Below, piece after piece: positions 5,994 to 8,201 of a stretch of DNA of 64,000 nt (position 1 is the first letter of the stretch; each line of letters starts with the position of its first letter). The stretch spans positions 18,666 to 82,665 of the forward strand of contig CANGBK010000003.1 of the NCBI GenBank assembly GCA_947452235.1. Direction: 5' to 3'. Under the pieces are notes generated by a model that saw only the letters and a program-made list of their open reading frames with translations, did not search any database and was not told the DNA's origin. The DNA comes from Micrococcales bacterium. GTDB lineage: Bacteria; Actinomycetota; Actinomycetes; Actinomycetales; Microbacteriaceae. The position numbers and the translations under genes are program-made.

Positions 5994-6107
5994 ATGAAGG
6001 TTAACCCAAGCGTCAAGAAGATTTGTGACAAGTGCAAAGTCATTCGTCGTCACGGTCGCGTGATGGTCATCTGTGAGAACCCTCGTCACAAACAGCGTCA
6101 GGGCTAA
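5994..6107 (+). CDS. rpmJ: 50S ribosomal protein L36 (37 aa; absent from ORF track because it is short)
   Basis: ATG at 5994 reads [37 protein letters not shown]. Confidence 0.97.
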
Positions 6108-6149
6108 TCACAGAGCTTTTGCAACACCTATAACTAAATAAAAAACCAA

Positions 6150-6236
6150 AGCAGTGTTCAAGATTTTTAATCTGGCACCTCTCGAGAAGGCGAGAGCTCA
6201 AATAAATATTTGAGATAACACTGTTGCAGACCTTCT
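6150..6236 (+). ncRNA. Candidate structured 5' leader of rpsM (4-way junction plus possible pseudoknot)
   Basis: Closing stem 6150-6158/6217-6225; hairpins 6161-6173, 6179-6196, 6197-6214; hairpin loop AGAAGG 6185-6190 complementary to CCTTCT 6231-6236. Confidence 0.5.
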
Positions 6237-6256
6237 AAACATCAGGAGAAATCCAA

Positions 6257-6637
6257 ATGGCACGTATTGCCGGAGTCGATATTCCTCGCGACAAGCGAGT
6301 TGAAATCGCCCTAACTTATATCTATGGAATCGGTCGCACACGCAGTGTGAAAGTTTTGACCGACACCCAAATCGACAAGAACACTCGCGTTAAAGATCTT
6401 TCAGATGACCAGTTGGTTGTTCTTCGTGATTACATCGAAGGTAACTACAAGGTCGAAGGTGATCTTCGCCGTGATGTTGCAGCTGATATCCGTCGCAAGG
6501 TTGAGATCGGTTCATACGAAGGTATTCGTCACCGTAAGGGACTACCTGTTCGTGGTCAGCGCACCAAGACTAACGCTCGTACTCGTAAGGGTCCAAAGCG
6601 CACTGTAGCCGGTAAGAAGAAGGCGGCACGCAAGTAG
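6257..6637 (+). CDS. rpsM: 30S ribosomal protein S13
   Basis: [30 protein letters not shown]. Confidence 0.98.
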
Positions 6638-6678: not shown

Positions 6679-7089
6679 ATGGCAGCACCTAAGGCAAAGG
6701 CAACGAGCACAGCTCGCAAGCCTCGTCGTAAAGAAAAGAAAAACGTCGTTAACGGTCAGGCTCACATCAAGAGCACTTTCAACAACACCATCGTGTCTAT
6801 CACTGACTCAACCGGTGCCGTTATCTCATGGTCATCATCTGGTGATGTTGGCTTCAAGGGTTCACGTAAGTCAACCCCGTTCGCAGCTCAGATGGCAGCG
6901 GAAGCAGCAGCTCGTAAGGCTCAAGAGCACGGTTTGAAGAAGGTAGATGTTTTCGTGAAGGGCCCAGGCTCTGGTCGCGAAACAGCTATCCGTTCACTTC
7001 AGGCTGCCGGTCTTGAAGTTGGTTCGATTTCAGATGTGACCCCACAGGCTCACAACGGATGTCGTCCACCTAAGCGCCGTCGCCTCTAA
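6679..7089 (+). CDS. rpsK: 30S ribosomal protein S11
   Basis: [40 protein letters not shown]-type end. Confidence 0.98.
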
Positions 7090-7128
7090 TAGAAGTTTTT
7101 GCAACACCAGCTTTCACAACTTAATAGC

Positions 7129-7152
7129 GCTGTTTAGTGGCCACTAAATAGC
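7129..7152. promoter_or_regulatory. Perfect 16-bp palindrome TTTAGTGGCCACTAAA (7133-7148) extended to 24 nt by GCT/AGC
   Basis: Read directly: GCTGTTTAGTGGCCACTAAATAGC; further arms GTTTTTG 7095-7101 / CAAAAAC 7159-7165. Confidence 0.6.
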
Positions 7153-7205
7153 AAACCCCAAAAACGAGATATCAAATAGTGGATGTCTCAATGAAAGGAA
7201 CCAAC

Positions 7206-8201
7206 GTGCTAATTGCACAGATCCCTGTTCTGCACGAAGAAATTGACAACAATTTCCCTAACCGCGCTCGCTTTACTCTAGATCCACTAGAGCCTGGTTT
7301 CGGTTACACCCTAGGTAACTCACTTCGTCGTACCTTGCTTTCATCTATTCCTGGTGCAGCTGTTACCAGCATCAAGATTGAAGGCATCTCACACGAATTC
7401 GCACCTATCGATGGTGTGAAGGAAGATGTTACTGAACTTATCTTGAACGTTAAAGACATTGTTGTGTCTTTGGATGCAGATGAGCCAGTTATCGTTCGTC
7501 TTAAAGGCGGCGTTGGCGAAGTTAAGGCTGGAGACATTTCAACCGACCCTCGCGTTACTATTCACAACCCAGAGCTAGTTATCGCTCACGTCAACAAGGG
7601 CAACCTAGACATGACTCTAACTATCGAAGCTGGACGTGGTTACGTTACTGCTGCACAGAACCGTCAGCCAGATCACGCTAACAACGGAATCATTCCGGTT
7701 GACTCAATTTATTCACCAGTTCTAAAAGTTTCTTACCGTGTTGAGGCAACTCGTGCCGGTGAGTTCACCAACTTCGACAAGCTAATTGTTGATGTTGAGA
7801 CCAAGGGTTCAATCTCTCCTCGCGAAGCTATCGCTTCTGCAGGTAAGACTTTGGTTAACCTATTCGGTCTAGCTGCTGCTCTAGATGAGAACGCTGAAGG
7901 TATTGACCTTCCTGTTTCTAGCGCTCCAGTTGATCTTCCACCAGCATTGGCAAAGCCTATTGAAGAACTAGATCTAACAGTTCGTTCATACAACTGCCTA
8001 AAGCGTGAAGGTATCAACACCGTAAGCGAACTAATCAACCTAACTGAAGACCAGTTGATGAACATCCGTAACTTCGGATCTAAGTCAGTTGATGAGGTTC
8101 GCGACAAGCTAACTTCTATGGGCTTGCGTTTCCGTGACGCAGTTCCAGGATTCGATGCTGCATACTTCAGCTCAAGTTTTAACCAGGACGACCAGGCGTA
8201 A
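7206..8201 (+). CDS. rpoA: DNA-directed RNA polymerase subunit alpha
   Basis: [14 protein letters not shown]... and [25 protein letters not shown] at 7206 is preceded by AAAGGA at good spacing, so I prefer it to the 7179 start of the ORF track. Confidence 0.95.

Follow-up and report, generated by a model that had tools for sequence, protein, structure and literature searches.

A candidate ribosomal-protein leader RNA with a pseudoknotted four-way junction upstream of rpsM in the class Actinomycetes

The spacer between rpmJ and rpsM in a 64,000-nucleotide stretch of DNA from a member of the Microbacteriaceae (hereafter the window) was found to carry a structured element. We interpret it as a cis-acting ribosomal-protein leader RNA that controls rpsM translation throughout the class Actinomycetes, and we put the probability of this reading at about two in three. 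The rpsM leader of Actinomycetes is best read as an undescribed ribosomal-protein leader family, which probably acts as a feedback switch for the synthesis of ribosome parts. Its location before ribosomal-protein genes and its covariation-supported structure are the general marks of such leaders.

Results

Structure of the leader in the window

A sequence-only reading of the window had proposed a four-way junction in the rpsM leader, with a pseudoknot between a hairpin loop and a strand further downstream. The positions it gave for the stems, the loop, CCTTCT and the Shine-Dalgarno (SD) sequence all agree with the window sequence (Table 1). The first gene 3' of the leader is rpsM, in the operon rpsM-rpsK-rpoA-rplQ. 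When the segment 6149-6230 was folded alone, the four-way junction was obtained both as the minimum free energy (MFE) structure and as the centroid (-24.3 kcal/mol, z = -3.16), and 1 of 200 shuffles gave an equally good fold. The third hairpin, P4, lies where it had been placed, but it folds with 7 bp and the loop AAAU, not with the 8 bp and loop AA assigned to it. With more upstream sequence included (6120-6250) the MFE structure has a competing outer stem, TGCAACA/TGTTGCA, which by inspection is not kept in the spacers of relatives, whereas P1 is. Three separate lineages gave the same junction on folding (z between -3.7 and -4.6). A mycobacterial locus is among those that fold in this way; it was assigned by its S13, which is closest to PDB 5v93 and 5o5j, the ribosomes of M. 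tuberculosis and M. smegmatis.

The rpmJ-rpsM spacer of the window was scanned for terminators and promoters; no intrinsic terminator was detected, and the promoter scan gave nothing convincing. In the genus, UCC is conserved after the SD (AGGAGAAAUCC, AGGAGUAAUCC, AGGAGUUCC; 6244-6254 in the window) and could make a tiny hairpin over it.

Table 1. Positions of the rpsM leader, its parts and the flanking genes in the window
Feature	Position	Strand	Basis
rpmJ (L36), 5' neighbour gene of the leader	5994..6107	+	ORF list; spacer defined from rpmJ
AACTNAATA element directly 5' of the leader	6132..6140	+	pattern count in spacers
P1 closing stem, 5' strand	6150..6158	+	sequence check, fold, class-wide alignment
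P2 hairpin, length varies among relatives	6161..6173	+	fold, class-wide alignment
P3 hairpin, most conserved part; class consensus ACCCCCGGUCGGAGGCCGGGGCC	6179..6196	+	class-wide alignment
P3 loop AGAAGG, pseudoknot 5' strand	6185..6190	+	genus and class covariation
P4 hairpin	6197..6214	+	class-wide alignment, sequences of relatives, folds
P1 closing stem, 3' strand (one G-U in P1)	6217..6225	+	sequence, alignment, fold
CCTTCT, pseudoknot 3' strand	6231..6236	+	pairing and co-adaptation with P3 loop
Shine-Dalgarno AGGAG of rpsM	6244..6248	+	sequence
rpsM (S13), ATG at 6257	6257..6637	+	ORF list; homology in relatives

Covariation in the genus and in the class

In the genus, rpsM was located in 46 further genomes, and each of these has the leader in its rpmJ-rpsM spacer. 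Thirty of these 46 relatives were aligned, and 87.3% of the pair cells held standard pairs, as compared to 74.2% in shuffled alignments and 47.5% at the best slide. Both sides had changed in 24 of 33 pairs, and compensatory changes occurred in every stem. The pseudoknot helix was 100% paired in this alignment, and its variants compensate, GAAGG/CCTTC being replaced by AAAGG/CCTTT and by GAATG/CATTC.

Class-wide, 46 sequences were aligned with a model of the nested structure, and 92.6% were paired (70.9% shuffled), with changes on both sides in 28 of 33 pairs; this alignment is biased towards the nested structure by its model, from which the pseudoknot is absent. The covariation score was 0.454, against 0.147 after shuffling and at most 0.103 after sliding. 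Both-side changes were present in 8 of 9 pairs of P1 and in all counted pairs of P2, and P3 had 99.6% of its cells paired with compensatory changes in 4 of its 6 pairs. The five pairs of the pseudoknot are intact in every one of the 46 rows, three of them with changes on both sides, and a pairing of at least 5 bp was present in 120 of 124 sequences aligned by a covariance model without the pseudoknot. Twenty-four of the 28 distinct combinations of loop and strand can pair, while 2000 reassignments of the strands gave a mean of 14.8 and a maximum of 21. The loop:strand duplex energy was -9.44 kcal/mol as compared to -6.57 kcal/mol (sd 0.11) when permuted, in a test that picked pairs by complementarity, so that the strand reassignment is the cleaner of the two. 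Thus all the helices, and the proposed AGAAGG/CCTTCT pairing with them, covary in relatives.

Distribution and position

A covariance model built from the genus only, with no pseudoknot included, gave matches before the rpsM genes of Glutamicibacter (E = 2e-8), Arthrobacter, Pseudarthrobacter and Nocardiopsis, and also of a 9.5-Mb member of the class (E = 7e-6). Two family-level matches of this model (L063/L064) lie away from rpsM and seem to be due to chance. By inspection, the leader is present in nearly all of the approximately 78 other genera of Microbacteriaceae sampled. In most of these a short linker replaces P4, giving a three-way junction, and the pseudoknot is GGAGG/CCTCC; GGAGG is also the P3 loop in most of the class. 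P4 is present in the genus of the window, in Micrococcaceae, in the 9.5-Mb class member and in the mycobacterial loci. Carriers in other families include Micromonospora, Lentzea, Rhodococcus, Winkia and Xylanimonas, and the pseudoknot of Lentzea, UUCCAGG/CCUGGAA, is an independent compensatory switch.

A strict scan detected the hairpin together with the pseudoknot in 195 of 213 distinct rpsM upstream regions of the class, a set weighted towards the genus and family of the window, as compared to 6.6 in dinucleotide shuffles. Outside the class Actinomycetes the two were found together in 3 of 59 sequences, and there rpmJ usually abuts rpsM. A second model (R2) gave one match per genome in at least 188 of 297 class genomes (E ≤ 0.01, strict filters); this is a lower bound, as some R2-negative genomes carry the leader (e.g. 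G388/G475, loci L256/L263). The differently shaped actinobacterial leader of the sequence-only reading thus reaches further than Microbacteriaceae, into the whole class. The window genome has one convincing match; its next-best R2 match (E = 0.017) is antisense inside clpP and was rejected as a second copy. The leader is dispensable in places: 18 of the 213 class sequences failed the strict scan, and it is absent from a 0.9-Mb reduced genome of the same family (L134, G080), where rpmJ is close to rpsM.

All 29 class loci checked sit approximately 20 nt before rpsM. Over the class, the median distance from the end of the pseudoknot to the AUG is 22 nt (quartiles 21-23), and the median gap between pseudoknot and SD is 9 nt.

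Relation to known RNAs

Rfam 15 was searched with the window leader and with class-wide loci, and no match above chance or threshold was obtained. Alpha_RBS (RF00140) scored weakly, with 18.5 bits (threshold 38); membership was rejected, as this score comes mainly from the conserved rpsM start region. Neither of the outcomes by which the sequence-only reading said it would be refuted, missing covariation and an Rfam hit, was therefore seen. In openly licensed literature, searches on rpsM or S13 leaders found no description of the structure, and an earlier description elsewhere is possible. Within that scope, the claim that the architecture is undescribed held.

Twenty ribosomal-protein leaders are listed by Eckert and Weinberg 2020 (PMC7247131), where those of rpsM are in Clostridia and Fusobacteriales and none is in Actinobacteria. 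The predicted S4 leaders of Clostridia and Fusobacteriales likewise precede rpsM, in the operon rpsM-rpsK-rpsD-rpoA-rplQ. In M. tuberculosis, Arnvig 2011 (PMC3207917) describes a highly expressed rpsM 5' UTR of 216 nt, and an rpoA 5' UTR homologous to it; both are suggested there to be regulatory. That UTR comes from the spacer that holds the leader reported here, again within Actinomycetes; the text describes for it neither a secondary structure or pseudoknot nor covariation or a class-wide family. The mycobacterial rpsO leader, in which a pseudoknot is required for autogenous control by S15 (PMC8470358), is also an actinobacterial ribosomal-protein leader, for another gene and another protein.

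The S4 site of the E. coli alpha operon (RF00140) and the present leader both lie before rpsM and have a pseudoknot near the ribosome-binding site. Translational control, which we propose here, would be a further point in common. Unlike the E. coli site, the leader has a four-way junction, its pseudoknot ends approximately 9 nt before the SD and does not contain it, and rpsD is usually absent from the Actinomycetes operons that carry it.

Other elements in the operon

The element AACTNAATA directly before the leader occurs again at 7118-7126 before rpoA. Its pattern was present in 108 of 216 rpmJ-rpsM spacers, as compared to 4.0 expected from shuffles. It is similar to GAGAACTCAACAG of the 16S rRNA leader in the same genus; the 16S of the window genome was not found in its assembly, and the comparison was made with 16S leaders of relatives. 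On this resemblance AACTNAATA may, speculatively, be boxA-like.

A second class-wide hairpin lies in the rpsK-rpoA spacer, directly before the ribosome-binding site of rpoA (GAGATATC-AAATAGTG-GATGTCTC, 7166-7189). It has a GYGUC/GRCRC-like stem with many variants and the loop AUAURGCG. Of the sequences from the class, 145 of 152 carry it, as compared to 0 of 21 from outside; it has no match in Rfam 15. A palindromic hairpin, TTTAGTGGCCACTAAA, is also located between rpsK and rpoA (approximately 7133-7148); in the genus its flanks vary and AGTGGCCACT is mostly constant. Between rpsK and rpoA there is no rpsD gene (window 6679-8201).

Discussion

The fixed spacing before rpsM and the lack of an intrinsic terminator suggest that the leader acts on translation initiation; with no terminator, control is most likely exerted at translation. 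The predicted ligand is most likely a protein of the operon. In the mechanism that we propose, an operon protein that exceeds its rRNA sites would bind the leader junction, with S13 as the first candidate and then S11 or S4. Once bound, the protein would lock the pseudoknot in place at the border of the 30S landing site, so that rpsM and, through coupling, the genes downstream would be translated less. Such a mode would resemble the E. coli alpha-operon pseudoknot, on an unrelated scaffold. S4 is lowered among the candidates since rpsD is in only 19 of the 125 leader-bearing operons and, in the window genome, lies elsewhere with no leader, which leaves S13 and S11; L17 is less likely than these two. 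S13 and S11 are not named as leader ligands in the cited studies of ribosomal-protein leaders, and a search for rRNA mimicry by shared words gave only 7-8-mer matches to 16S, which assign no ribosomal protein. We hold the fullest version of the proposal only tentatively, at somewhat less than even odds: that an undescribed class-wide leader senses S13 or S11 through a four-way junction, with a pseudoknot of an SD-like loop at the edge of the landing site, and that the rpoA hairpin is a second leader.

The sequence-only reading had compared the leader to the S4 site of E. coli. The leader and its pseudoknot stand; the least secure element of that reading is the analogy to S4, as neither this operon nor most leader-bearing ones contain rpsD. 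We think it unlikely that the leader binds S4 and corresponds in actinomycetes to the alpha-operon site, with repression in trans where rpsD has moved. In favour of S4, other alpha-operon leaders have it as their confirmed ligand (PMC7247131, PMC10931766), and rpsD is third in the leader-bearing operon of Micromonospora, Lentzea, Rhodococcus and the mycobacterial loci, which is probably the ancestral state. Against it, 106 of the 125 leader-bearing loci with enough sequence have no rpsD in the operon, and in the window genome this gene is on another contig with no copy of the rpsM leader there, so that no feedback by S4 on rpsD would be possible. In addition, the conserved unpaired GUAA by which the S4 leaders of Firmicutes and Fusobacteria mimic the S4 site of 16S was not seen in the class-wide alignment on inspection. 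The idea that the leader is an on/off switch, in which CCUUC/CCUCC pairs either with the P3 loop, leaving the SD free, or with the SD, hiding it, appears improbable as well. The loop of P3 resembles an SD sequence and the strand downstream an anti-SD, and the MFE structure of 6120-6250 does pair CUUCU with AGGAG. However, co-adaptation is seen between the strand and the loop (-9.4 kcal/mol, against -6.6 after permutation) and not between the strand and the SD (-5.50, against -5.59 after permutation); we rejected the latter as a selected pairing, and it may be a by-product.

The leader could also have no ribosomal-protein partner. A constitutive element without a protein ligand, serving as a translation standby site, for mRNA stabilisation or as a processing site, would suit a highly expressed operon in need of a structured spacer, and regulation is here something that we infer. 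We consider it quite improbable, as a conserved junction with a covarying pseudoknot, set at a constant spacing from the AUG and only before a ribosomal-protein operon, is the pattern of known ribosomal-protein leaders (PMC7247131). A chance fold or coding-sequence artefact could draw on the weak Alpha_RBS score (18.5 bits, threshold 38), which comes from the conserved rpsM start; it is refuted by the 195 of 213 detections against 6.6 expected and by covariation far above shuffles and slides, and its probability is negligible.

For the preferred reading, a ribosomal-protein leader controlling rpsM translation, the setting is one in which almost no information exists on ribosomal-protein control in the phylum (PMC8470358). 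Very little work has been done on the way in which Actinomycetes keep the products of this operon, namely S13, S11, in some cases S4, RNA polymerase alpha and L17, in balance. The reach of the leader exceeds that of most ribosomal-protein leaders, which are usually narrow (PMC7247131), and Rfam would gain a family. With a structured leader conserved across the class, mycobacteria included, there is now a defined element in which the mutations to be tried are clear.
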